Source: Diphasiastrum complanatum (Eukaryota; Streptophyta; Lycopodiopsida; Lycopodiales; Lycopodiaceae). Taken from it: a stretch of DNA of 64,000 bases. Position numbers and translations under genes: made by a program. The DNA lies in contig MU831857.1 of the NCBI GenBank assembly GCA_029204225.1, forward strand, positions 36,231-100,230, written 5' to 3'. Of the stretch, positions 8,970 to 63,060 are shown one piece after another. Positions within the stretch are counted from its first letter, which is position 1. Each line of letters opens with the position of its first letter. Below the pieces are notes generated by a model. The model worked only from the letters and a program-made list of their open reading frames with translations. It ran no database searches and had not been told where the DNA came from.

Positions 8970-11900
8970 CTTGTTGTCATCATTGCCATTAGCTAATGAA
9001 GAGCATCTTATCAATAATGTTGTCATAGGAGATATCCAGGGAGAATTAGATCAGATAGACTCGTTAAGTTTTCAAATTTGTCGCATGATCATATTGTAAG
9101 AAATGATATCAATTATATAGATGTGCAATAGTAGATGGTGATCAAATTATAAAAAATAATGTAGAGCAACTTACTATACTACTAATTATATAAATCGCTT
9201 TACTTATATAGTTTATTGATTGGCATGACACAAGAATATGCTATAACTGGTGATGAGTACACATTTGATCATGATATTGTTATGTAGTATATTACTACAT
9301 TTGGCTTTCACTTGTGCAAATGGCCTATATTGTTGAGATAGAATCAAATTCCATGTGTTGATAAAAATCTATTTTGTAGTATACCAAGACTTATATCAAG
9401 GGGTGCATTTTTTTAAGCAATGATGGTATATACTGGAATTTTCATTGGCAAAAGATGCTAATTACAAGGATTATACCAAAAATATTTTTGAGGGTATCGT
9501 GGTCATGAATCAATGCACAATTGCCTAGCATTGCTAACCACCCTCACATTCTTTTTTTTGGCTATCTTTTCTGAAAATGCTCCAAAGTAGCATTGGAAAA
9601 CCTCTACTTTTAGTGTCCTAGCCACTCCAGTGGCATGTACATCAACCAATCCCGACCATTGATATTCATCAATAAAGTAGATCTACTCTAAGTCAAATAT
9701 GCAAATGTGACCTACGATAGATAGCAAGTTTTGCCTTGGAACCAGGCCAAAAGGTGAAGGAAGTATTCCATTTTGAATAAAATAACCTTTTGGGCATGTA
9801 ACTTGGCCCCAAGTTCAAGTTTAGACTCATTAACATAAGTGAAAAATGACCAAATCTATGTTGTGCAACTTACAGAATTTTTACAATTTCCCTTCAAACT
9901 GTCCTAGTAGAAGTTTTTAGAATAAAAAATCTCTTTTGGCTTGGAATTGAGACAAAAATTAGTTTCTTCTCTATCGAACGTAGTTGTTGGGATTCTGGTG
10001 CTTCTAAAGTTTAGTTTGCGTAGAAGCTCTACACAAGGCTTTTCTTTTTAAAAAATTAACTAAGTGTTGGGTGGACGTGAATAATGACTACAGTTGCTTT
10101 TTGTGGTGTAAGAAACAAAGTTGCTTATCATTTTGAAATAGCGTGTGAAATTGATGAGGTAGGAAGGACAACCAAGAGGGAAATAGTGAAAGCAACAAAG
10201 TGAAATATTGTAGAAATAGGCAAGTAGGACGAAGTATCGATCAAAGTAGTGATGCTTGTTCATAAATCATGATCAACCAAACATACAAGCAGTTAATTCT
10301 TAGGATGTTATTTACAAAGATAAGTTGTTGAAAGATAAAACGTTTTTGTTAATCTCAAACATGACATGTACAAAAACTTAAACAAGAATATATATAAAAG
10401 GAAACTTGAAAACTAATGTGATTGTAGACCACTCACTCTTAGTTGAGGTGGATAGGTAATGGCATTTATACTCAATTTTGAAGAAGTTTAATACAAAAAC
10501 ATGAATATATCTAGGAAAGATAAGAGACACTTTAGGAATTTTCTATTATGAGTTGATAAACTTTTTGAAGGTCTATTGCATACAATCATTAGTTGTTCAT
10601 ATTTGTAGAACTTTATTATAAAGACTGCGTAATGTTGAGGATTTTTTCAAAATGAAAAAGGTAAAAACTATCATTGAGCAGATAAGTGCTTGTTGATCGC
10701 TGCTTCGTTCCTCATCTCAGGGTTTAAAGAATTTCCTAAGAAACCTTCCAACTTATAAACAAAGCTTACTAGACTGGGAAACATTTTGAAATCACAGTCC
10801 AAAAATAGAGTAAATTTTTTCACTAGAATTTGCCATAGTAATATGTGCTCATAGTCTTTCATAAAACCTAATGCTTCTTGGTTTCCAAGGGGAGGCTCAA
10901 AACCTAGGACCAAAGAAACGTTGGATGTCAAGCTAACCAACTGAGCCAACAGTGTTAGGTCATAAAACCTAATGGTAGATGAATTTTGAATGCTTGTACG
11001 TGATACCAAAACAACAAATTGAAATGTAAATGTGAGATTGCTTGGAAAGACACCTTTGAATATTAAACTTGGCATGCTTGGAAAGCAGAATATGTGTATT
11101 GACTAAAGAGTATGTATACATATAGTCCCTTTTCAAGATAAAAACTCTATTCAAGATTTAACAAACTCCAAGTCAAGATAGAGATTACCCATTGAAATTT
11201 TTGTTAGTTGTAGACTCTTTTCCTCACCTCGGAGTTTGGTGTTTAAATTTCACTCAAGCACAATCAGACATGAAAGGTTATTAAAAGGATAGAAACCACC
11301 AATGTATAAAGCGCATCAAAAAACAGTAAACTTGCTTGTCTGACAATCCAAACACATTTGGCAACCATGGTAAAAATCCTCACATGCGATAATTTCCTTC
11401 AGAAGAAAACAAAATATGACAAGTCTCAAGCATTAGCATACTTGAGCATCACGAATGACTAAAAGTGGAGCTCTTTCTCCTATCTCTTACACACTCACAA
11501 GAATCCTACATCATGAAGTAGGATCTTGTCACTTTGTCTATATCTTTTCCAGGTAGTTGAGCTTGTTCAGTGGCAACTCTTAAAGCAAGAGAACACATTA
11601 AGATCTAACCTTCGCAAGAAGAAATGTTCAAAGTTTGGTTAATCAAAACTGTGATGGATTTACTTACGGACACTGATCTGATGATCTTTCGTTATGAATG
11701 GAGTAGCCACAAACATTTGTATAACTTGTACAAAACCAAGGTTGATTACCCATGCATTTCTGGTCTGTTTGCAGTTTGTTTGCTTCATGCATGTTTGTGA
11801 AGACTAGTTAGCAAGCAGCAGGCTTGCCCTTAAATGATCATCTTTCCTCCCAGTAAAGCACACCAGCCATATCGGTTGCAAGATCTGTGAAGTATTAGTC

Positions 11901-11990
11901 ATGAGGAAAACTTGGTTAATTTCTGGTCAACGTAGCTACAACTTTCCCGCTTACTAAACAAGCATCCAAAGCTCATTGAATCAGCAGATA
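8970..11990. other. AT-rich region with no recognised gene
   Basis: Both strands were read for domains, LTR ends, primer sites and tandem repeats, and nothing convincing was seen. A 134-codon minus-strand frame at 10671-11075 has no recognisable feature. The part next to 11996 would be the 3' UTR and downstream flank of the peptide gene. Confidence 0.4.
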
Positions 11991-11995
11991 GGCAG

Positions 11996-12793
11996 CTAAT
12001 GGCTGCGGGGAGGGTGTGGTGTAGGGTCTGAGTAGTCTACATGAAACAGTGGATCATTTATTCCAGTATCTGGCCTCTGACGATAACCCCTGAATTTGGT
12101 TCTCATGTCATGCTTAATGGTAGAAGATAGCTTTTCTGATTTTATAGGTGTAGACGAGTGAGGAACTCCAGTTGAGCTTTCGGCAGTTTCAGAAAGCAGA
12201 AGCCTTGGGGCCCAGATGATCTGCTTGCTTCCATGTCTTCTGGTTGCTGCCTGATGAACTGATCTCCTCTTTGTGACTATTTCCCACAAAAAGCTCCTCA
12301 GTCTAAAAGAGTTCCGTGGTAAGTTCTGCCTGTGTTGGTATGAGATCTGTCAAATTTATTCATTTAGTAATGCTCTCTCTCTCTCTCGCACGCAATCACG
12401 CGCACACACAGACGAGCTAGCTAGCACTGCAAATTACTTAATTGCACGGTATATGCCCGGGGTGAGAAGCCTACCTTTCTTGGAGCAAAAACTCCGTTAT
12501 TCAGCTCAAACTGAGCTAAATGGTCACCTTGCAGTTTCATGTTGATGTCTTCAGAAGAATGATCTGATATTCCTGAAAAGCAAGTATGCTGTTAATCTAT
12601 ATGGGTTGCCTCCAAAAATCAGCATGAACAAAACGCATGCTCTGCTGGCTATCGCTAAATCGTTATTAGGGAGAATACCTTGTGAGAGTTGGATGGATGT
12701 CTTGTTTCTTAAGAGCAGGCAAACGCCTACCAGAGCCGATGCAGTAAGCAGCACAAGGAGCAGAAGAATCCTTGCCCCAGCTTTCTGAACCAT
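11996..12793 (-). CDS. RGF/GLV/CLEL-like secreted peptide hormone precursor, three exons
   Basis: The proposed exons on the minus strand are 12793-12679, 12572-12475 and 12346-11996, giving 187 residues. Exon 1 starts at an ATG with G at -3 and +4 and an in-frame TGA four codons upstream. It encodes a hydrophobic N-terminus (residues 8-28, ILLLLVLLTASALVGVCLLL) that looks like a signal peptide. The junctions are AAG|GTATTC to TTTTCAG|GA (phase 1) and AAG|GTAGGC to TTTGACAG|AT (phase 0), with a TTACTAAAT branch-like site before the last. All three exons are open in the joined frame. The protein ends DYSDPTPHPPRSH (175-187), matching the RGF1 peptide DYSNPGHHPPRHN at 8 of 13 positions, including the Asp-Tyr needed for tyrosine sulfation. 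RLLL at 119-122 could be a subtilase (SBT6.1-type) cleavage site. RGF peptides signal through LRR receptor kinases to control root meristems. The region between is basic and variable, as usual for such precursors. The main alternative is a PSY-type peptide (DYGDP...). Confidence 0.75.
11999..12037 (-). other. Predicted mature RGF-like peptide
   Basis: These 13 codons encode DYSDPTPHPPRSH and are followed directly by TAG. Features shared with RGF1 are the first residues DYS, Pro at 5, His at 8, Pro-Pro at 9-10, Arg at 11, and placement at the extreme C-terminus. By family rule Tyr2 would be sulfated and Pro10 hydroxylated. Gly6, His7, His12 and Asn13 of RGF1 are replaced by Thr, Pro, Ser and His. 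Confidence 0.75.
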
Positions 12794-12988: not shown

Positions 12989-13060
12989 TCGAGAGGGAGA
13001 TCCCGTTCCGATTTGATCACACCAGAAATGTTTCCATGTCTTGCTTCATGCTTGAGAGAC

Positions 13061-13064
<4 letters not shown>

Positions 13065-13131
<67 letters not shown>
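13065..13131. repeat. (AG)33 microsatellite upstream of the peptide gene
   Basis: A perfect AG run lies about 270 bp upstream of the precursor ATG; on the transcribed strand it reads (CT)n. CT-rich tracts are common in plant promoters and 5' UTRs. A TATATTTATATAG stretch lies further upstream on the minus strand (near 13243-13258), a possible TATA box. Confidence 0.9.
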
Positions 13132-16272: not shown

Positions 16273-19200
16273 CTATGTTGACTTGAACATGGATCTTGGT
16301 ATTACTCCAAGATTGGCTCTATGCTTAATGAAGGAACTCTTGCTCAAAGGTTTGGTGAGCAAATTTGCAATACAAGATGAAGTGTCGATGTGCTTCAAGT
16401 AGATTTTCCCTCCAATGAGCTTCTCTCTCACGAAGTGATGTGCAACTTCGATGTGTTTGCTCTTTGCATGGAATATCGGATTGTTGGCAAGGGCTTGTGC
16501 CGAAATGTTGTCACACATGATCATAGGTAGATCACTTCCATGATTATCTTTAGCTCCACTAGCAAAAAGCACTTCCTTTGTTGTATTAGTGAGTGCTTTA
16601 TACTCAGCTTCATAAGATGAGAGTGATACAATATCTTGCTTTTTGGAAAGCCAAGATATCAAGTTTCCTCCAAGATATATGACATAAGCACTTGTAGATT
16701 TTCGATCTACTCTATCACTTGCAAAATCTGCGTCAGAATATCCAACTATAGAAAGATCTTCACTTTTATACAACAAACCATAATCAAAAGTTGAAGATAT
16801 GTATCTAAGCACTCTCTTGGCCATTTTCCAATGATGAATAGTAGGATTTTGCATAGCTTGGCTCAACTTATGAACACTAAAACTTATGTCAGGTCTAGTT
16901 ATTGTGAGCCAAATTAGGGAGCTTATAAGACTCCTAAAAAGAGTGATGTCCACGAGGATCTTTCATCACCTTTGTTAGGGTCTTTTACAATTTGCTCCAT
17001 AGGAGTTTCTATACTCTTACAATCTAACATATTGAACTATTTTAACATTGAAAGAGCATACTTGGATTGACATACAAAAGCTTTATCATTAAGAAAGTCA
17101 ATGTCTAATCCTAATATGTAGTGAATCTTTCCAAGATCTTGCATCTTGAACTCTTTTCCAAGTGCAACCTTGGTCTCCTCAACTAACTTCATACAACTTC
17201 CTGTTAGAATGATATCATCAACATAAATAAGAAGGATGACAATATCTCTATCATAAAACTTGACATACAAGGAAGGATCATAGTTACTAAGTTTAAAAAC
17301 TTGGTGACTCAAGAAAGGTGTTAAGTCGAGAATACCACGACCTTGGAGCTTGCTTTAGTCCATGTAGACTTTTGAAGAGCAAGGAAACTTTGTCTTTGTC
17401 ATGGATGAACCCAATAGGCTGATCCATATAAATCTCTTCTTCTAGATATCCATTTAAAAATGCATTAGAGACATCTAGTTGAAAAACTTGCCAATTGAAA
17501 AAACATGCAATAGAAATTATGATTCTAATTGATACCATCTTTGCAACTGGAGCAAAAGTCTCCTCATAATCAAGTCCATAAACTTGAGCAAAACCCTTTG
17601 CACAAAGCCTAGCCTTGTACTTGTTGATTGTGCCATCTTGATTATACTTGACTCGAAAAACCCACTTGCAACCAATGGTGTGCTTGTTGGATGGAAGATC
17701 CACAAGCTCCCATGTCTTGTTGGCCATCAAAGCATCATATTCCTCCTTCATGGCAAGAAACCATTCCTTCAAATTGAGTGCATCATATACATCCTTTGGC
17801 TCCTCATGTGAAATAAAATAAGCACAATTAGTGGAGTTGAGTTCCACTTGCTTGCCTTTATCTTCATATGTAATCCTCCTAGGCTCGGATCTTTCTCTTT
17901 GAGACCTCTTTGGTGAAAAGATTCGAGGTGACTCCTCCTCAATTCTCGGCCCCATCTCTCCATGATAGTCTTCAAGGGTGACGATTGGAGTATCTTTTTG
18001 AGAATATTTGAACTCGGCCTCCTCAAGAATGTATTTTTGATCCTCATGAAATATAACATCTCTACTCTCAATTGTAGTTGAGGTAGAGGGAGCATAGATT
18101 CTATAAGCTTTCTTGTTGGATGAATATCCAAACATGATCCCTTTGATAGAATTAGGATCATCTCTTCTCCTTGTTTCCAAGGGTACATGAACAAAGCAAG
18201 CACATCCAAAAACTCTAAGGTGATCCACCTTAGGTTTCTTCTTAAACAAGACTTCATATGGTGATTTTCCAGCAACTGCATTATGAGGTAATGTATTGCA
18301 CAAGTAGTTTGCACAATTTATTGCTTCACCCCAATATTCAATAGGCAAAGAAGCTTCAACTCGGATTGCTTTAGCACATTCACATAAAGATCGATTTTTC
18401 CTCTCAGCAAATCCATTTTGAGATGGAGAATAAGCACAAGAAAACTCTCTCTTTATTCCTTCACCTTCACAATATTCATAAAACTTGTTGGAGATGTATT
18501 CACCTCCTCCATCACATCTTAAAGCTTTAACTTTTAAGGAAAACTGTTTCTCAACATAAGCTTTGAAGATTAGGAAGTGATCAAATACCATAGCTTTTGA
18601 AGAAAGTAGATACAACCAAGTATATCTTGTAAAGTCATCAAAAAAGGTGACAAACATGTTGCACCACCAATACTTTTAGAAAAAGAAAAATGAACATCCG
18701 AGTGTATAAGCTCCAAAGGATGAGTAGTCTTGATAAAAGACTTTTGATATGGCTTTCTATGTGATTTTGCAATAGCACAAGCCTCACAAGGCTTGAAATC
18801 TTTGGAAAATGATTTTGGAAGGCCAACAGTCTTCTCTCTCTTGACCATAGAAGACATAGACTTAAAGTTAGGATGCCCCAACCTTCTATGCCACAACTCC
18901 TCCTTAGATAAAAGAGCAACTTCACAAAGGTTTGCATTCTCATAAGAATTCAACTTGAAAATTCCACCATATCTAGATCCATCAGCTAGGACCTCATTGT
19001 TTTTCTTGATAAAGCAAATATTGGAGTTGAACTTTACATCACAACCACTATCAAGCAACTTTCCAACACTAATCAAGCTCTTTCTAAGTTGAGGAATAAA
19101 AAGAACATTAGAAAGTGCAAGAACTTTAGAAGAAGCAAGTTTCAATGGAATGTTGCCAATTCCTTCAATAGAGCACTCATGATCATTAGCAGTTAAATAG

Positions 19201-20205
19201 ATCTCTTAAGTCCTTTGTAAGATACAATTGAGTCAAATGACTCCTTTTGAACAGCACATATGTGAAGAAGCTCCACTATCTATGTACCAAGCTCCATCTT
19301 TCTTGAAAGGTGATGAAGAAAAACTGGACACCATAAGTGATCCTTCTCCATCACTTGCAATAGAATCTTCTTCAATCTCTTTGGAGAGATTAGCTTGCTT
19401 GAGTTGGTTTTTCTTCTTAAAGCAATTAGAGGCATAGTGCCTCTTCTTGCCACAGAAGAAACACTTCACTTTCTTCTTCTTGGTCTTTGAAGTAGAAGGA
19501 TGAGATGAATCATCCTCTTCCCCACCTTTGTCTCGATCCTTGGCTTTGTCTTTGTTGGATGGTTGAGAAAACCGGTTCTTGCCCTTCCTTTATGCTTGTC
19601 CTTGACAAAGAGGGCTTTGTCACTTCCAACATGTTGGAGTTTGTTCATCCTAGAAAGTTTATAACTTTGCCTAGCTTCTTTAGAGATAAGAATTCCTTGG
19701 AGAGTTTCTAAATTAGGCAACTTCTCCTTAATGGAAAAGGACTGAACAAGATTATCATAGTCATCTTTCAAGCCATTTAGAATGACTTGTACTAGCTCAT
19801 CTTGGTTAATTGTAACACCAACACAAGAAAGCTCTCTATGAAGATCTCCTCACTTCTTTGAAAACTTTGGAAAATCTGATTTCTAAGAGTGAGTATTCTA
19901 GAAGTATTCTTTGCTTCATAGATGGATTTAAGTGCATCCCAAGCATCTTTAGTTGTGGTGCAAGATCCTATCTCTCTCAAAATTTCATTAGATACATTCA
20001 TCTTAATGAAATGTAGAGCCATTCTAGCTCTCTTCCTGTACTTTGGTATTTCAAGTTGTGCTTGAGGCTCCTCCTCCATACCAAGCACAATGTCCATAAC
20101 ATCCTGGAGTATTAAAATAGACTCCAATCTAAGCTTCCAAATTGAGTAATTAGAAGTATTTAGTCTTTCATTTTCTTCTAGAAGATATCCTCCCAGAGGT
20201 GCCAT
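16273..20205 (-). pseudogene. C1 gag-pol, broken by frameshifts
   Basis: Read right to left, the order is gag, nucleocapsid, protease, integrase, RT, RNase H. Gag starts MAPLGGYLLEENERLNTSNY at 20205. The zinc knuckle starts CFFCGKKRHYASNC (19465), with the Gly of GH changed to Arg. The protease box is WYIDSGASSHMC. The integrase has ELWHRRLGHPN, HSDVHF and LRCDGGGEYISNKF. The RT has [25 protein letters not shown] and LIYVDDIILTGS. RNase H has GYSDADFASDRVDRKS and the final HIEVAHHFVREKL segment. Frame breaks near 19780, 19470, 19200, 18600, 17300 and 16960-17037 separate otherwise intact blocks. Catalytic residues are largely kept, but no complete polyprotein can be made. It is closest to C2 and C3 in this window, with many amino-acid differences. 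Confidence 0.9.
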
Positions 20206-23817: not shown

Positions 23818-26390
23818 CTATGAAGATTTGAGCATTGATCTTGATATAACTCCAAGATTAGATCTATGCTTGATGAAAGCACTTTTGCTCAAAGGCTTGG
23901 TGAGTAGATCGGCAATACAAGAGGACGAGTTGACATGCTTCAAATAGATTTCTCCTCCAATAAGCTTTTCTCTCACAAAATGGTGTGCCACTTCTATGTG
24001 CTTGCTTCTTGCATGAAATATGGGATTATTGGCAAGAGCTTGGGCCGAGATGTTATCACACTTGATCATTGGTAGATCATCCTCCTTGATGCACTTTAGT
24101 TCCATTAGTAACCTCTTGATCCAAAGCACTTCTTTGGTAGTTGTAGTGAGTGCTTTGTACTCGGCCTCACATGAAGAGAGAGATATAGTATCTTGCTTTT
24201 TGGAAAGCCAAGATATTAGATTGCCTCCAAGAAAGATAGTGTATGCACTAATAGACTTTCGATCCATCTTGTCACTTGCAAAGTCCGAATCCGAGTAGCC
24301 AATAATGGATAGATCTTCACTTTTATAGAGTAGACCATAATCACAAGATGAAGATACATATCTTAGAATCCTCTTGGCCATCTTCCAATGATGGATCTTA
24401 GGTTCTTGCATAAATTGACTCAATTTGTGCACACAAAAACTAAGATCGGGCCTAGTAATGGTAAGCCAAATCAAGGAGCCTACAAGACTCCTAAAAAGTG
24501 TGATGTCCTCAAAGGATCTTTCATCACCTTTGTTAGGATCTTTTACAATTTGCTCCATTGGAGTATCTATGCTCTTAGAATTTTCCATATGGAATTTTTT
24601 CAACATAGAGTGACCATATCTAGATTGGCATATAAAGACATGATTTTCATAAAAATCAATTTCTAGGCCTAGGATGTAATGTATCTCTCCTAGATCTTGC
24701 ATTTTAAACTCACATCCAAGTGCTAGCTTGGTTTCATCAACTAGCTTGATACAACTTCCACAAAGAATAATGTCATCAACATAAATTAGAAGAATGACAA
24801 TATTGCTATCAACAAACTTTAGATACATGGAAGGATCATAGTCACTAAGAGTAAATCCTAGTGAGATAAGAAAAGAGTTAAGTCTTGAATACCATGATCT
24901 TGGTGCTTGCTTGAGTCCATAAAGACTTTTGAAGAGCAAGCACACTTTGGACTCATCCTTGATGAATCCTTGAGGTTGTTCCATATAGATCTCCTCCTCA
25001 AGATAACCATTTAGAAAAGCATTGGATACATCTAATTGGAACACCTTCCACTTGAAAAAACAAGCAAGAGAAATAAGAATTCTTACTGTCACCATCTTTG
25101 CAACGAGTGCAAAGGTCTCCTCATAATCAAGACCATGGATTTGAGCAAATCCTTTGGCACATAATCTTGCTTTATGCTTGTTGATGGTGCCATCATGATT
25201 GAACTTGATCCGAAATACCCACTTGCAACCAATCACATGCTTGTTGGAAGGAGGATCCACAAGCTCCCAAGTATTGTTGGTGATCAATGCATCATACTCT
25301 TGCTTCATGGCATCATACCACTCCTTGGTATTGAGTGCCTCTTGTACATTCTTTGGTTCTTCATGAGAGACATAAAAAACATAATTAGTGGAATCAAGAT
25401 CCACTTGTTTGCCTTTGTCAACATATGAGAGCCTCTTAGGCTCGGATCTATCTCTCATGGATCTTCTTGGTGAAAAAATCCGAGGAGAGTCTTCTTCAAA
25501 TCTCGACCCCATCACATCATGATTGTCTTCAAAATCAATAATTGATGATGCATACATAGATTTCTTGATCTCGGCCTCTTCAAATGATGAGTGTTGATCT
25601 TCATGAAAGACAACATCTCTACTTTCAATAACTTGAGAAGTAGAGAGTATAAAGACTCTATAGGCCTTCTTGGTGGATGAGTATCCACCATGATCCCTTT
25701 GCATGCACTAGGATCTTCCTTCTTCCTTGTTTCCAAGGGAATATGGACAAAGCATAAGCATCCAAAACCTCTAAGGTGATCAACCTTAGGCTTCTTCAAA
25801 AATAAGATTTCATATGGTGACTTTCCTCCAAGAGCTATATGTGGGAGCCTATTGCAAAGATAAGCTGCACAATTAATGGCTTCTCCCCAAAAATCTTTGG
25901 GCAAAGATGCCTCAATTCTCATAGATTTTGCACATTCACATAGAGATCTATTCTTTCTCTCGGCCACTCCATTTGAGCTGGAGAGTAGGCACAAGAAAAC
26001 TCTCTTTTAATGCCTTCAAGCTCACAAAAATCTTGAAATTTATTGGAGATATATTCACCACCTCCATCACTTCTAAGAGCTTTAATCTTGAATGAGAATT
26101 GCTTCTCTACATAAGCTTTGAAAATAAGGAATTGATCAAACACCATAGATTTTGAAGCAAGAAGATATATCCAAGTGAATCTTGTGTAATCATCAATGAA
26201 AGTAACAAAACAAGTGGCTCCTCCCTTGCTTGTAGTTGATGAGAAATGCTCATCCGAGTGGATTAACTCCAAAGGATGCTTGCTTTTGATAGAAGATCTT
26301 GTAAATGGCTTTTTGTGAGATTTAGCAATAGCACAAGCCTCACAAGGCTTGATCTTCTTGGAGAATGACTTTGGCAAGCCAATAGCTATG
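23818..26390 (-). pseudogene. C2 pol: integrase, RT and RNase H
   Basis: The region from 25704 down to 23818 is one 628-codon open frame covering the RT and RNase H. RT motifs include [52 protein letters not shown] and YVDDIILCGS. RNase H motifs include GYSDSDFASDK and ADLLTKPLSKSAF. The integrase is in another frame upstream (IHSDEHFSSTTSKGGATC, LRSDGGGEYISNKF), with breaks near 25980 and 25690. The first catalytic Asp context, HSDV, reads HSDE. The RT-RNase H half is the best preserved pol in the window, though it cannot be made without the missing gag. Confidence 0.9.
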
Positions 26391-26399
26391 GATTCTTTG

Positions 26400-26930
26400 A
26401 TTTGGCATATCCCATGAGTTGAGTACCCTCTCAAACTCTCTGATTGCCTAAAACTCTTACATATCTTTCCACTCTTGGTAAAGGACTTGGGCAAGTCAAG
26501 ATCAACTCCTAATTTCTTGCTCATTATCTCCATGCTTTTGAAATTGGGACGGCCTAAACTCTTATTCCATAGCTCCACTTGTGCCATTATTCCCACATTA
26601 GAAACATTTGCATCAAGCTTAATATCCTACCTTGCTTACAACCTTTTGCCATACATTTCTCATTCCTAAGAATAGAGCAAACATCCTTCTTAAAATGAAA
26701 ATTAGAATCATTATTCATCAATTGACCCACACTCAAAAGATTCTTGGTGATTGAAGGTACATAAAGTACATTGTCTAGATTTAACTTTCATGGAAATCCT
26801 ATAAAGGAATGGTGTGAATCTCTCAATGCTACATTCTTGATCATTTGATGTGAAAATTGACTTCCTAGCACCATGATAAGAGAGTAGAGTTGAGACAAAT
26901 TTTGAGACCTTCATTTTGAACAACTTATAT
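26400..26930 (-). pseudogene. C2 upstream part from a different copia lineage
   Basis: Read on the minus strand, this gives a decayed protease-to-pre-integrase region. It includes ARKSIFTSNDQECSIE near 26860 (compare C3 VKKSIYTANDFECPIE). LDNVLYVPSITKNLLSVGQL lies near 26720-26780 in another frame, and ELWNKSLGRPNFKSMEIM lies near 26575-26520. Similarity to C3 here is only partial, while the sequence left of 26400 is nearly identical to C3. Stops and frame changes are frequent. Confidence 0.7.
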
Positions 26931-54400: not shown

Positions 54401-54869
54401 CTTGCGAAAGTTCTGCAAGGGTTCAATCCTCGCAGCGAGTAAATGTTCACACAACTTGCTCCCGTGGTAGGATTTTCAAGATCAGACCATGTAGACAGGC
54501 TAATTTCACTACTCTGATTCCATTTATGCCCCTTGCGAAGTTGGTTTGATGATCTTGATGCTCTACGAGGGTTTTGAAGATTCTGCTTCCAAGAACCCTC
54601 GCACATACTAAAAAATGATGTTTTTTTCATCAGTAACTCTCACAGAGATTTTCATAGATGCATCTAGGTCAGATCTAGGGATTGTCCAAGTTTCAAGAGT
54701 TATCTCCCAGGGGATCTCTAAAAATCATGAAAAAAATGCTCTTTTTATAGTGTTTTTTGATGAGATCTTGAGATTCTCTAATTTTTAACTTTTGCAAACC
54801 GGTAATTTGCTACATCCATGTTAGATCTGACTGTTAGTAACTCTCTGAAAGTTCTGATAGATATTTGGG

Positions 54870-57569
54870 ATCACGAAAAATTCCTCCAACAGGACCTTGA
54901 TGGTCTCATTGATGAAATGACTCCCGCGATCACTAACTATCTCCACTGGGCACCCAAAGCACACAATGATATTTTCATAGAGAAACTTGACAGTGGTCCT
55001 AGCATCAGCTACTCTTACTGCCTTGGCTTCGACCCACTTGGTGAGGTAGTCAGTGGCCATGATTATGTATCGAGCGTAGGTACATTTTGCTGCAGGGTGA
55101 ATTGGACCAATGTAATCCAATCCCCACTTTTCAAATGGTGCTTGGGCTAAGACCGGGTGCAGAAGGTCATAATTCAATCTCGTCGGTCTCCTTGCCCTTT
55201 GGCACACATCGCATTTTCTTAGGTATTCCTCTGTATCCTTATGAATCATTGGCCACCAGCATCCTGATTGTAGAATCTTGCGAACTGTAATGTCGGATGC
55301 AAAATGGCCTCTACTTATGCCTTCATGTGAAAGCGAAATGATCTGGGTGGCCTCATGAGGAAGAATACATCGCCGGAGAATCCCATCTAGTCCCCTTCGG
55401 TACAGTTAGCCGGCAATCAGCTGATAATGTCTAGTTTTCAAGATCAATTTTCGTTGATCCGCCTTTGGTAGTGATTTGTCTGGTTGGCCCCTCATTAGAT
55501 ATTCAACTATGTTAGCAGCCCACTCCGGTACTGTGTCTACGTAAAATAAGGTAGCATCAGGCAGCTCATCGTCGGGTTGGAGTGCAACCTCCTTCCCCTT
55601 GATCCGCGACACATGATTTGCCATGTAGTGTTGTTTTCCCTTGCAAACTACTATCCGAAAATCAAACTCTAACAACAGAAGTAGCCATTGAGTGATTCTC
55701 CCTGTGTTGCAGATTTTGTTAACAAGATCGAGAAAGGGTTGATGGTCCGTATAAAATACAAAGTGTGTGGCCATCAAGTAGTGCCGAAACTTCTTAACCG
55801 CATATTTCATTGCCAGTGCTTCCCGCTCTGTGGTTGAATAATTCATTTCTATATCACTGAGCTGTCGGCTTGCAAATCGGATCGAAAATTTCTTTTTGTG
55901 TTCTCCTAACTAGGTTAAGACTACACCAACTGCATACTTCGATGCATCCATATGCACTTGAAACTCAATGGATTAATTGGGAAGATGTAGGATTGGTGCT
56001 GAAACCAATGCATCCTTAAGTTTTTGAAAAGCCTTTAGGGCTTCCTCGTTCCAATGTGGATCCGTTGTGAGTTTGCAAATTGGCCATGCTAACTCCGCAA
56101 AATCTAGAATGAAGATCCTGTAATAATTAGCATGACCCATAAAGATGTAGACCTCGCGGATCGTTCTAGGTGGTGGTAGATCAACAATGATTCTGATTTT
56201 TGATAGGTCTGTGGCGATCCCATGTCTAGATACTATATGGCCAAGAATCAAGCCATGTGTAACCCAAAATTGACATTTTTCTGGATTCAAGGAGATCTGG
56301 AATTAGCGACATTTTTGTAGTACCTTCTCCAGATTGGATAAGTGTTTAGAGTTTGGTCCATGCATGCACAGATTGTCCAAAAAAAATTTCAAAAATTTTT
56401 GCAAATACTCTTTGAATGCCTACATGACTCACTGGACAGTGCTTGGGGCATTACAAAGTCCGAATGGCATCACCTTATAGGCATAGGTTTCCCATTCTGT
56501 GGCGAATGTTGTCTTATGCTGGTCTTGGGGTGATATCTTCACTTGGTTGTAACCGCTGAAGCCGTCTAAAAAATTGTAGGCTTCGGCCCCAACTACTCTG
56601 TCAAGGACACTTTCCGTAAAGAGCAAAGGAAAATGATCATTTTTGGTAACTACATTTAGCGTCTTCAGATTCACACAGATCCATGTTTTGCCATTCTTAT
56701 TGGTTACTATAACTATCGACGATACCCATTCAGTGTGTTCAATTTCGTATATGAAATCTGCATCGAACAACTTCTGCAATTCTTACTTGATCAGCTCCTT
56801 GTAGTTTGGGTTGTAGCGGTAGTAACGACTCACCTTGGGGACTGCTCCATCCACCAAGGGTATGGTGTGTTGGACTATTGTTGGTGGAATGCCCTTCAAA
56901 TCACTGTAATTCTAGACAAAACAATCCTTGTACTCCACCAACAATGATCGTAGTCTTTTGAATTGTGTGGGCGTTAACTACTTTCCCACATATACGATCT
57001 TTTCTTCTTCACCTGGATCGGCAAGGTTCATGGGTTGCATTTGCGCAGGTCCTTCAAAGACTTGTTCTGCTGGTGTCTGACTTTGATCAAGTTCTCGCTG
57101 TTTTTGCGGCATTATAATTACCACGTCGTTCAAGGTATAATTCTTGAAGGTCTCAAGCATCTCGTGAACTGGTGCTCGTCGAGATTCCTCCTTCAACATA
57201 TTGATCTTAACTCGACTGGTCATCTTTTGATTTTCCATCATCTGAGAAGAGGATGATGCTGTATTAGACTTCATCCTGATTGACTTCAAGGAATCCAACA
57301 CCTTCTTTTTGCCTCCTTTTTTCAAATGGGTGGATTCGTTGTTGTTGTCTTTATTCAAAACTGGTGTGACATTCGCCTCATGGTTGCGAATATCAACATC
57401 CACTGTAGCTTCTTCGGGCACTCCATCGGATCACCTGGTTGTAGAGTTGCGTCAACTAGATCTTCTTGTTCACAGGTGTCCTTGGTGGATCTATCCTTGA
57501 AAATTTTGCCATAGCGGATTTTTGCGGCGGTTGAGCTAGTACTTTGTTAATTCCGTAACAATCTGGGTC
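54870..57569 (-). pseudogene. Ty3/gypsy pol remnant (continues at 63815-64000)
   Basis: Order on the minus strand: protease-region frame (57421-56978), RT, RNase H, integrase. RT begins ADFIYEIEHTEWVSSIVIV and includes FLDGFSGYNQVKI and MPFGLCNAP. The FLDD-type catalytic box near 56370-56400 reads FLDN, losing an Asp. LNPEKCQFWV and ILGHIVSRHGI follow. RNase H has TTEREALAMKYAVKKFRHYL and FYTDHQPF. Integrase has the zinc-binding CDVCQ, WGLDYIGPI and SDRGSHFINE, then loses similarity at about 54880, before the catalytic Glu. It resembles Tat-like plant gypsy elements. Stops and frame changes lie near 56970, 56430-56290, 55900 and 55400. The upstream part is displaced by the nested copia element C3. 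Confidence 0.9.
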
Positions 57570-58325: not shown

Positions 58326-59068
58326 TACCTAAGGTTACCATGCATTTTGATCCATCTAAGTGAAAAAATTTCATCAATCTTGAGCTAGAAGTTGTCAAGG
58401 CCCATTTTCCTAGCTATCTTGTTCAATCTTGGATCAAAAGAGATCAAAAGGACATTGATTGGGTCTGACCTGGTACTGTACGGAATCAGGTGCTCAGACA
58501 CGTGTGAGGAACATCCAATTTCAGTTTGGAAGTTCTCTCTCATCTTCGATCCATTTATCTTGCTTGATAGCTTGTTTTGAAGCTATTTTTGTCTAGTTTT
58601 TGTTGCAATCAGTTTCATTCCATTTGGTTGAGCCAATCAAAAGTTATAAGCTTTTGAAGAGGGTTAGGTAGGGCACCTAGACCTGGGTGGACACATTTGG
58701 TTTGGTCAAGAGATTGCTTGGTTGATCCAAAATCACAGTTGTATGCTTGCCAATCTCATCTATATGTGATCTAGGCACTGTTTTGAGATCTTAGCCATTT
58801 TGTTTCATGCAATATGATTGTATTTGAGTCAAATTTGGTTTCTTAGTGTATTTCACACGTGCTAAGAGTGTTAGATCCTAACTTTTCCTATACTCCATCA
58901 TTTTATGTGAAATAGATCTTGTTTTAGAGAGATTTGTGTAGCTAGTGAGAATCAATTCACAAATTGTTGTAAGATCTTTCATAGGAGGAGATAGTACTCA
59001 ATTATTGGATCCTATTGAAAGTGTGTAACAACATTTATTGTTCATCATTTGAGTTTTCTTCACTTCAA
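58326..59068 (+). other. C3 untranslated leader
   Basis: About 740 bp separate the primer site from gag. ACACGTGTG (near 58498) and CACACGTG (near 58854) recur in it, echoing the LTR palindromes. No long reading frame was seen. Confidence 0.6.
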
Positions 59069-61516
59069 ATGTCTTCAATGGGTTCATCCTTGTTGGAACC
59101 AAGTGAAAGATTGACCACTTCAAATTATTCAATTTGGAAAATGAGGATGGAGTCCATCTTGATCCTTCAAGACGTGATGGACATAGTTCTTGGCCTTGAA
59201 GAAGAACCACAAGTTCTTCAAGAGGTTCAAAAATACAAAAAGAGAGCTAGGATGGCTCTCCACTACATTAAGATGAATGTCTCTAATGAGATATTGAGGG
59301 AGATAGGTACTTGTACAACAGCCAAAGAAGCTTGGGATTGTCTCAAGACTATCTATGAGGCTAAGAATACCTCTAGGCTTCTCACTCTTAGGAATCAAAT
59401 CTTTCAAAGTAGCCAAAAGAGTGATGAGAGTGCATCTAGTTATGTTTTGAGAGTAAAAGATATTCATAGAGAGCTTGCTTGTATTGGTGATTCCATCAAT
59501 CAAAATGAGCTAGTTCAAGTCATTCTCAATGGCTTGAGAAGTGAATTTGATAATCTTGTCCAATCCTATGCCATTAAGGAGGAGCTACCAAGTTTGGACG
59601 CTCTCCAAAGTGTGCTAATTTCAGAAGAATCAAGACAAGAGTACAAGCTCTTGAGGATGGACAAGCTTTCTCTCACTCATAATGATGGCAAAGCTCTCTT
59701 TTCCAAGGATAAGCACAAAGAGAGGAGCAAGAACCAACATCAACAATCCTCAAGCAAGGACAAAGTCAAATCCAAAGACAAAGATGAGGAGGAAGATGAT
59801 TCCTCTAATGCTTCATCATCCAAGCTCAAGAAGAAGAAGAAGATCAAGTGCTTTTATTGTGGCAAGAAAGGTCATTATGCCACCAATTGCTTCAAAAAGA
59901 AGAATCAACTCAAGCAAGCCAATATTACCAATGAGAAGGAAGACACTATTGCAAGTGATGGAGAGGGATCTCTTATGGTCTCTAGTTTCTCATCTACTCC
60001 TTTCAAGAAGGACGGCCTATGGTATATTGATAGTGGAGCCTCTTCACATATGTGTAGCTCCAAGGACTCTTTCTCTTCTATTGCACCTTATGATGGAGTG
60101 AAGAAATCAATATACACTGCAAATGATTTTGAATGTCCTATTGAAGGCATAGGGAACATTCCCTTGAAGCTTGCATCCTCTAAAGTTCTTTCTCTCTCTA
60201 GAGTTCTTTATGTACCTAAGCTTACCAAGAATCTTATTAGTGTTGGCCAATTGCTTGATAATGGCCTTGATGTAAAATTCAATGTTGATACTTGCACTAT
60301 CAAGAAGAATGATGAGATACTTGCATTAGGATCTAGATTTGGTGGCATCTATAAACTAGATCCAAATGAGTATGTGAATGCTTGTAATGTTGCTCTTGTG
60401 AACAAGCTCTCTATGGAGGAATTATGGCATAGGAGGTTGCGACATCCCAACTACAAATCCATGCTCTCTATGATCAAAGAATCCAAAGCTATTGGCTTGC
60501 CAAAGTCATTCTCCAAGAAGATCAAGCCTTGTGAGGCTTGTGCTATTGCTAAATCTCACAAAAAGCCATTTACAAGATCTTCTATCAAAAGCAAGTATCC
60601 TTTGGAGTTAATCCACTCGGATGTGCATTTCTCATCAACTACAAGCAAGGGAGGAGCCACTTGTTTTGTTACTTTCATTGATGATTACACAAGATTCACT
60701 TGGATATATCTTCTTGCTTCAAAATCTATGGTGTTTGATCATTTCCTTATTTTCAAAGCTTATGTAGAGAAGCAATTCTCATTCAAGATTAAAGCTCTTA
60801 GAAGTGATGGAGGTGGTGAATATATCTCCAATAAATTTCAAGATTTTTGTGAGCTTGAAGGCATTAAAAGAGAGTTTTCTTGTGCCTACTCTCCATCTAA
60901 AAATGGAGTGGCCGAGAGAAAGAATAGATCTCTATGTGAATGTGCAAAATCTATGAGAATTGAGGCATCTTTGCCCAAAGATTTTTGGGGAGAAGCCATT
61001 AATTGTGCAAATTATCTTTGCAATAGGCACCCACATATAGCTCTTGGAGGAAAGTCACCATATGAAATCTTATTTTTGAAGAAGCCTAAGGTTGATCACC
61101 TTAGAGTTTTTGGATGCTTATGCTTTGTCCATATTCCCTTGGAAACAAGGAAGAAGGAAGATCCTAGTGCATGCAAAGGGATCGTGGTTGGATACTCATC
61201 CACCAAGAAGGCCTATAGAGTCTTTATACTCTCTACTTCTCAAGTTATTGAAAGTAGAGATGTTGTCTTTCATGAAGATCAACACTCATCATTTGAAGAG
61301 GCCGAGATCAAGAAATCTATGGATGCATCATCAATTATTGATTTTGAAGACAATCATGATGTGATGGGGTCGAGATTTGAAGAAGACTCTCCTCGGATTT
61401 TTTCACCAAGAAGATCCATGAGAGATAGATCCAAGCCTAAGAGGCTCTCATATGTTGACAAAGGCAAACAAGTGGATCTTGATTCCACTAATTATGTTTT
61501 TTTATGTCTTTCATGA
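59069..61516 (+). pseudogene. C3 gag, protease and integrase
   Basis: The start is taken at MSSMGSSLLEPSERL (59069). The frame is open 18 codons further up, but gag relatives begin here. Domains in order: UBN2-type gag (SNYSIWKMRMESILILQD); Lys/Asp/Ser-rich linker; zinc knuckle CFYCGKKGHYATNC (near 59849); protease WYIDSGASSHMC (near 60019); pre-integrase ELWHRRLRHPN, where the usual Gly is Arg; integrase with HSDVHF, LRSDGGGEYISNKF and NGVAERKNRSL (the D, D, E residues are all present). The open frame ends at 61516 because a T run near 61497-61503 has seven T where C2 has six, shifting the frame just before RT. Apart from that, this is the most intact gag-integrase in the window. Confidence 0.92.
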
Positions 61517-63060
61517 AGAGCCAAAGAATGTACAAGAGGCACTCAATAGCAAGGAGTGGTATGATGCCATGAAGCAAGAGTATGATGCATTGATCACCAA
61601 CAATACTTGGGAGCTTGTGGATCCTCCTTCCAACAAGCATGTGATTGGTTGCAAGTGGGTATTTCGGATCAAGTTCAATCATGATGTCACCATCAACAAG
61701 CATAAAGCAAGATTATGTGCCAAAGGATTTGCTCAAATCCATGGTCTTGATTATGAGGAGACCTTTGCACCCGTTGCAAAGATGGTGAAAATAAGAATTC
61801 TTATTTCTCTTGCTTGTTTCTTCAAGTGGAAGGTGTTCCAATTAGATGTATCCAATGCTTTTCTAAATGGTTATCTTGAGGAGGAGATCTATATGGAACA
61901 ACCTCAAGGATTCATCAAGGATGAGTCCAAAGTGTGCTTGCTCTTCAAAAGTCTTTATGGACTCAAGCAAGCACCAAGATCATGGTATTCAAGACTTAAC
62001 TCTTTTCTTATCTCACTAGGATTTACTCTTAGTGACTATGATCCTTCCATGTATCTGAAGTTTGTTGATAGCAATATTGTCATTCTTCTAATTTATGTTG
62101 ATGACATTATTCTTTGTGGAAGTTGTATCAAGCTAGTTGATGAAACCAAGCTAGCACTTGGATGTGAGTTTAAAATGCAAGATCTAGGAGAGATACATTA
62201 CATCCTAGGCCTAGAAATTGTTTTTTATGAAAATCATGTCTTTATATGCCAATCTAGATATGCTTACTCTATGTTGAAAAAATTCCATATGGAAAATTCT
62301 AAGAGCATAGATACTCCAATGGAGCAAATTGTAAAAGATCCTAATAAAGGTGATGAGAGATCCTTTGAGGACATCACACTTTTTAGGAGTTCTTGTAGGC
62401 TCCTTGATTCTGGCTTACCATTACTAGGCCCCGATCTTAGTTTTTGTGTGCACAAATTGAGTCAATTTATGCAAGAACCTAAGATCCATCACTGGAAGAT
62501 GGCCAAGAGGATTCTAAGATATGTATCTTCATCTTGTGATTATGGTCTACTCTATAAAAGTGAAGATCTATCCATTATTGGCTACTCGGATTCGGACTTT
62601 GCAAGTGACAAGATGGATCGAAAGTCTATTAGTGCATACACTATCTTTCTTGGAGGCAATCTAATATCTTGGCTTCCAAAAAGCAAGATACTTTATCTCT
62701 CTCTTCATGTGAGGTCGAGTACCAAAGCACTCACTACAACTACCAAAGAAGTGCTTTGGATCAAGAGGTTATTAATGGAACTAAAGTGCATCAAGGAGGA
62801 TGATCTACCAATGATCAAGTGTGATAACATCTCGGCCCAAGCTCTTGCCAATAATCCCATATTTCATGCAAGAAGCAGCACGTAGAAGTGGCACACCATT
62901 TTGTGAGAGAAAAGCTTATTGGAGGAGAAATCTATTTGGAGCATGTCAACTCGTCCTCTTGTATTGCCGATCTACTCACCAAGCCTTTGAGCAAAAGTGC
63001 TTTTCATCAAGCATAGATCTAATCTTGGAGTTATATCAAGATCAATGCTCAAATCTTCAT
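61517..63060 (+). pseudogene. C3 reverse transcriptase and RNase H
   Basis: From 61517 the frame continues SHEEPKNVQEAL-like (first codon differs), [52 protein letters not shown] and YVDDIILCGS, so the RT core is intact. Near 62390-62430 a paired frame disturbance turns the C2 sequence SLVGSLIWLTITRP into SSCRLLDSGLPLLGP. RNase H has GYSDSDFASDK, another disturbance near 62680-62730, and a final shift near 62880 where one A of the C2 codons is missing. The end then reads in another frame to about 63060. A polypurine tract follows. Confidence 0.9.

Follow-up and report, generated by a model that had tools for sequence, protein, structure and literature searches.

The closest described systems are the RGF/GLV/CLEL peptide hormones. 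The main text of Furumizu and Sawa 2021 (PMC8329595) describes the RGF domain as 13 residues long, with an Asp1-Tyr2 sulfation motif, Pro10 and, in most cases, Pro5, His8 and Pro9. Residue 13 is given there as Asn in Arabidopsis and as His in the lycophyte Group H, whose RGF-like members are characterized by His8, a last residue of His, and a precursor that mostly ends with the peptide; Group R is limited, in the same account, to the Selaginellaceae and Isoetaceae. Arabidopsis RGF1 (GLV11, CLEL8) reads DYSNPGHHPPRHN in a table of PMC11534595, where its precursor has 116 residues, and is printed with one extra Pro in PMC10741408. According to PMC8708909, most RGF genes have introns, a signal peptide is found in 158 of 203 RGF candidates, and AtRGF1 is perceived by RGI receptor kinases. 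The maturation of the Arabidopsis CLEL6 and CLEL9 precursors, as described in PMC7162652, begins with a pre-cut by SBT6.1 in the Golgi (for CLEL6 at RRLR/RRAL sites); they are also sulfated and hydroxylated, and the final release is the work of aspartate-dependent subtilases, SBT3.8 among them.

The window analyzed here, a 64,000-nucleotide stretch of contig MU831857.1 from the clubmoss Diphasiastrum complanatum, contains a locus (gene A; Table 1) that is very probably an intact gene for a hormone precursor of this family, of the Group H type. Three minus-strand exons join to 564 nt and encode 187 residues, with a single RGF domain behind a variable pro-region. A sequence-only reading of the same DNA had proposed this precursor, its two GT-AG introns with junctions at 12679/12572 and 12475/12346, a hydrophobic N-terminus, a C-terminal DYSDPTPHPPRSH-stop, and a match to RGF1 at 8 of 13 residues; each of these points was reproduced. 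A Pfam scan of the precursor returned no family, the best match being CBF/Mak21 with an E value of 0.13, below its cut-off.

Table 1. Features of gene A and its surroundings in the window, and the repeat-borne fragments elsewhere in the assembly.
Feature	Position	Strand	Description
Exon 1	12679..12793	-	115 nt, phase 1 end; start codon and hydrophobic N-terminus; identical in C9 copy
Intron 1	12573..12678	-	106 nt, GT-AG, AAG/GTATTC...TTTTCAG; position and phase as in paralogs B, C, E
Exon 2	12475..12572	-	98 nt; final residues ...FAPRK
Intron 2	12347..12474	-	128 nt, GT-AG, AAG/GTAGGC...TTGACAG; short (GA)n run at about 12373-12387
Exon 3	11996..12346	-	351 nt; variable pro-region, hormone, stop
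RGF-type peptide DYSDPTPHPPRSH	11999..12037	-	stop TAG (11996-11998) directly after; Group H features
Candidate signal peptide, residues 1-20	12734..12793	-	AxA site (A18-S19-A20) before L21; basis hydropathy
Candidate SBT6.1/S1P-type pre-processing site R98-R-S-V101	12257..12268	-	picked by eye in alignment
(CT)n microsatellite	13054..13131	-	about 260 bases upstream of gene A start codon
Extra third intron of public model	11885..12040	-	156 nt, CAT/GTAGAC...TTCACAG/ATC; removes exactly Val174, 13 hormone residues, stop
Alternative tail of public model	11804..11884	-	26 residues plus stop; interpreted as 3' untranslated sequence
Repeat-borne RGF-like fragments	C6:63952114-63952161, 63952612-63952659; C24:7392383, 7392881; C4:73397496, 73831308		

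The predicted hormone carries every residue of the domain as described in PMC8329595 (Asp1-Tyr2, Pro5, His8, Pro9 and Pro10), spans 13 residues at the precursor end, and has at residue 13 the His of the lycophyte form rather than the Asn of Arabidopsis. Compared with RGF1, gene A shares the precursor layout with a C-terminal peptide but has Ser12-His13 in place of His12-Asn13, differs also in Asp4, Thr6 and Pro7, and encodes a longer precursor than the 116 residues tabulated for RGF1. Marchantia MpRGF1, printed as DYAEPDTHPPESN, agrees with the gene A peptide at 7 of 13 residues, including an acidic residue 4 and Ser12, and differs in having Glu11 and Asn13 where gene A has Arg11 and His13. 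A full-text literature search found no paper containing HPPRSH or DYSDPTPHPPR and none pairing Diphasiastrum with RGF. Diphasiastrum is likewise not named in the main text of PMC8329595; DYSDPTPHPPRSH or a near peptide may be among the sequences in figure 4 or the supplement of that paper.

Gene A belongs to a set of at least four intact-looking RGF genes (A, B, C and E), a lower bound for the 1.74 Gb assembly. B, C and E are built like gene A, with the same exon 1 phase and the same phases at both introns, in keeping with the intron-bearing RGF genes described elsewhere, and they end in DYAGPETHPPHNH, DYSGPRTHPPHNH and DYTPSGTHPPHNN, respectively; in all four genes the stop follows the peptide directly. 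A, B and C display all three Group H features, while the last residue of E is Asn. Gene B, of which C19 carries two copies (near 654 kb and near 826 kb), encodes 193 residues that are 48% identical to A (89 of 185 aligned) and has the end HVDYAGPETHPPHNH-stop; its exons of 124, 101 and 357 nt differ from the 115, 98 and 351 nt of gene A by multiples of three. Gene C is located on C21, and C1987 carries a copy of it that is 99.77% alike over 3.1 kb. The three exons of gene C (112, 92 and 327 nt) give a protein of 176 residues with the end HVDYSGPRTHPPHNH-stop. The first intron of gene C is of the GC-AG type (GAAG/GCAAGT, C21:40950625-40950717), in agreement with the public protein model. Gene E, on C9 near 15.27 Mb, has exons of 112, 92 and 336 nt and the end HVDYTPSGTHPPHNN-stop; this is our own model, without a public counterpart, and its start is the most upstream of four in-frame start codons.

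The paralogs, by keeping the three exons, the intron phases and the C-terminal hormone, together with the Group H features, support the sequence-only assignment of gene A to the RGF/GLV/CLEL precursors, as a further member of a family already known. The conservation in relatives that the same reading had looked for at the C-terminus is found within this genome, in B, C and E. No relatives from other species came from the protein database searches, in which queries with A, A plus B, and A plus B plus C returned D. complanatum proteins only (1 of 130, 2 of 758 and 3 of 2070 candidates); these searches are blind to relatives that lack an exact 5-residue word in common with the query. With A as the only query, O6H91_09G002900 alone of the 130 candidates had an E value of 10 or less.

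In pairwise comparisons of A, B and C by the NG86 method, dN/dS is 0.58 for A-B, 0.44 for A-C and 0.37 for B-C, the latter two being rough estimates because synonymous sites are near saturation (dS of 1.8 for A-C and 2.3 for B-C). In all three pairs a smaller proportion of nonsynonymous than of synonymous sites has changed (Fisher p of 0.004, 0.0002 and 0.00007 for A-B, A-C and B-C). Another alignment of A and B gave 0.60 (NG86) and 0.46 (YN00), values only moderately below 1, and of the four stretches into which this pair was divided, three had dN below dS and one, that of exon 2, had dN above dS (0.37 vs 0.32). Conservation is much stronger over the last 15 residues than over the remainder of the protein in A-C (10/15 identities vs 39/153) and in B-C (13/15 vs 37/154); for A-B the difference (9/15 vs 80/170) is not significant (p 0.42).

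The N-termini of A, B and C all contain a strong hydrophobic segment, and A18, A20, L21 and G23 (gene A numbering) are invariant in the alignment. An AxA motif behind a hydrophobic core is the cleavage pattern of signal peptidase, and the motif of the three precursors fits such a cleavage. The N-terminus of gene A may instead act as a signal anchor, because its hydrophobic stretch is about 20 residues long.

Other RGF-like sequences occur in the genome. Gene B is adjoined by an RGF-type pseudogene (C19 at about 650 kb, with a copy at about 821 kb) whose domain is broken by stops and a frame shift, so that the remnant NYGGPVETHPPQSH is left. Exon 2 of gene A has 78.6% DNA identity with that of the pseudogene over 112 bases, and the (GA)n run of intron 2 is common to A, B, C, E and the pseudogene. 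The 3' flank of the pseudogene can still be aligned with A and B; gene A and the pseudogene share 83% identity in a 65-base block at window 11482-11546, about 450-515 bases behind the gene A stop, and this block may be a conserved 3' or UTR element. Gene B and the pseudogene stand together in each of two blocks on C19 (about 645-655 kb and 817-827 kb), approximately 171 kb apart and 99.46% alike over the 9.9 kb compared, which represent either a recent duplication or an assembly duplicate. Finally, RGF-like ends reading MKDPVTLFHVDYSSPKTYPPHNH-stop, and variants of it, are borne by repeats (Table 1) in roughly 500-base tandem copies that are about 92-95% alike; a repeat appears to have captured the hormone-coding end and dispersed it.

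Several readings other than an intact RGF gene can be weighed against these data. A three-exon model could be an accidental combination of open frames that carries the motif by coincidence, given that the longest single frame, that of exon 3, is open for just 117 codons (slightly more than the limit of about 100 that the sequence-only reading had stated). The probability of this is negligible. The window, read in six frames, has 3086 C-terminal 13-mers that precede stops, and the runner-up among them agrees with RGF1 at 4/13; the runner-up among all 13-mers reaches 5/13. The pattern DY..P..HPP had zero matches in 60 windows simulated under a third-order Markov model. The match of 8/13 is far beyond chance, and we reject this reading on the uniqueness of the match and on the paralogs B, C and E, in which the whole structure is repeated. 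Membership in another family of sulfated peptides with an Asp-Tyr start, such as PSY, is most improbable: of three PSY peptides shown in a passage of PMC11534595, two do have the DY..P start, but the H8-P9-P10 block, the length of 13 residues and the peptide end at the stop are those of RGF Group H, the siblings of gene A read THPPHNH or THPPHNN, and PSY membership is rejected on these grounds. A further reading is decay. Gene A could be a decaying duplicate whose frames are open by chance or youth: it is set among retrotransposon remains, and an RGF-type pseudogene is present on C19 (about 650 kb). We consider this very unlikely, and reject it, as the frames, splice sites and motif of gene A are all intact and its dN/dS against the paralogs is below 1; moreover, the exon length differences between A and B preserve the frame, and the decay of the C19 pseudogene, with its defects inside the domain, looks different.

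An intact RGF gene is thus the preferred reading, and the alternative that weighs most concerns its splicing. The public protein O6H91_09G002900 equals our gene A model up to His173 and then continues with ILQPIWLVCFTGRKDDHLRASLLLAN, a tail that begins at 11884 and is reached through an extra third intron (Table 1). The sequence-only reading had called the gene hidden, which is correct in the sense that the public model excises the hormone through this intron; the gene itself is already annotated. O6H91_19G000600 and O6H91_21G067700 equal genes B and C in full, letter for letter and with the hormone included; all three proteins are named only 'hypothetical protein'. The public model may be right for most transcripts, in which case splicing of 12040-11885 would remove the hormone and gene A would give a hormone-less secreted protein or be switched off. 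Its three-intron structure is consistent with this, as are the TTCACAG acceptor and an upstream CTAAT, read by the branch-point rule, which resemble good splice signals, an AG near the matching acceptor place in paralog B, and the GC-AG intron of paralog C in the same annotation set, which suggests that transcript evidence was used. Against it, the donor CAT/GTAGAC is further from the usual AG/GT form than are the donors of introns 1 and 2, and its GT is just the first two bases of a conserved Val codon. The public models of B and C retain the hormone, and the tail is not conserved, because the aligned acceptor in B yields ILQLL-stop. On balance we regard this alternative as unlikely, and we take the third intron as a model error or a minor isoform. 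Such an isoform may be real, because the GC-AG intron of paralog C in the same annotation set hints at transcript evidence. It is doubtful, and rather improbable, that splicing of this intron is regulated so that one gene yields either an RGF precursor or a hormone-less decoy, with the public model as the 'off' isoform.

The window also bears on the genomic context of gene A. Window 1-59737 is antiparallel to C9:1893957-1825100, in stretches that are 99.3-100% identical with gaps on both sides (the comparison took in window 1-59737 and listed matches of at least 400 bases and at least 95%). Local gaps, for example at window 18349-19504, may be insertion differences. All three exons of gene A are identical in C9, where the gene lies at C9:1879555-1880347, and O6H91_09G002900 is listed on two contigs in the public data. 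The near-identical stretches and the identical exons suggest that the contig of the window probably represents the C9 locus a second time, as another haplotype or as a duplicate contig.

Pfam scans of 20 of the 49 open reading frames of at least 95 aa found retrotransposon domains in 8 (one only below cut-offs), one other weak match below its cut-off, and nothing in 11. The sequence-only reading had called gene A the only apparently intact host gene in the 64 kb; in the 20 single frames scanned, no other host gene was found. Scans for Rfam families (gathering threshold) and for tRNAs were both empty across the window. Retrotransposon coding remains lie at window 17293-19145, 23818-26596, 59015-62885 and 54821-55846; three of these four stretches are of the Copia type (RVT_2 or gag) and one looks Gypsy-like (integrase and RNase H matches).

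By analogy with the family, processing, signalling and expression of gene A can be proposed. Its N-terminus would direct the precursor into the secretory pathway, where a subtilase of the SBT6.1 kind would cut the pro-region. A candidate first site is an R-x-small-aliphatic motif that we recognized by eye in the alignment, using RRAL of CLEL6 as the comparison; it reads RRSV in A, RMAV in B and RGSL in C. A tyrosylprotein sulfotransferase would then sulfate Tyr2 of the Asp-Tyr motif, and prolines would be hydroxylated. With Asp1 as the second site, an aspartate-dependent subtilase could release the 13-residue DYSDPTPHPPRSH, the C-terminus being preset by the stop codon. The mature peptide would be expected to act as an intercellular signal perceived by RGI-type receptor kinases, with apical meristems as the probable site.

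The public model of gene A illustrates how automatic gene modelling can remove a hormone from a proteome and hide it from searches at the protein level. Four intact-looking RGF genes are present in this one Lycopodiaceae genome. In flowering plants the root meristem is under the control of RGF peptides, and the roots of clubmosses probably have a separate evolutionary origin. Intact clubmoss RGF genes therefore provide concrete ligands for asking what the early role of the RGF signal in vascular plants was.
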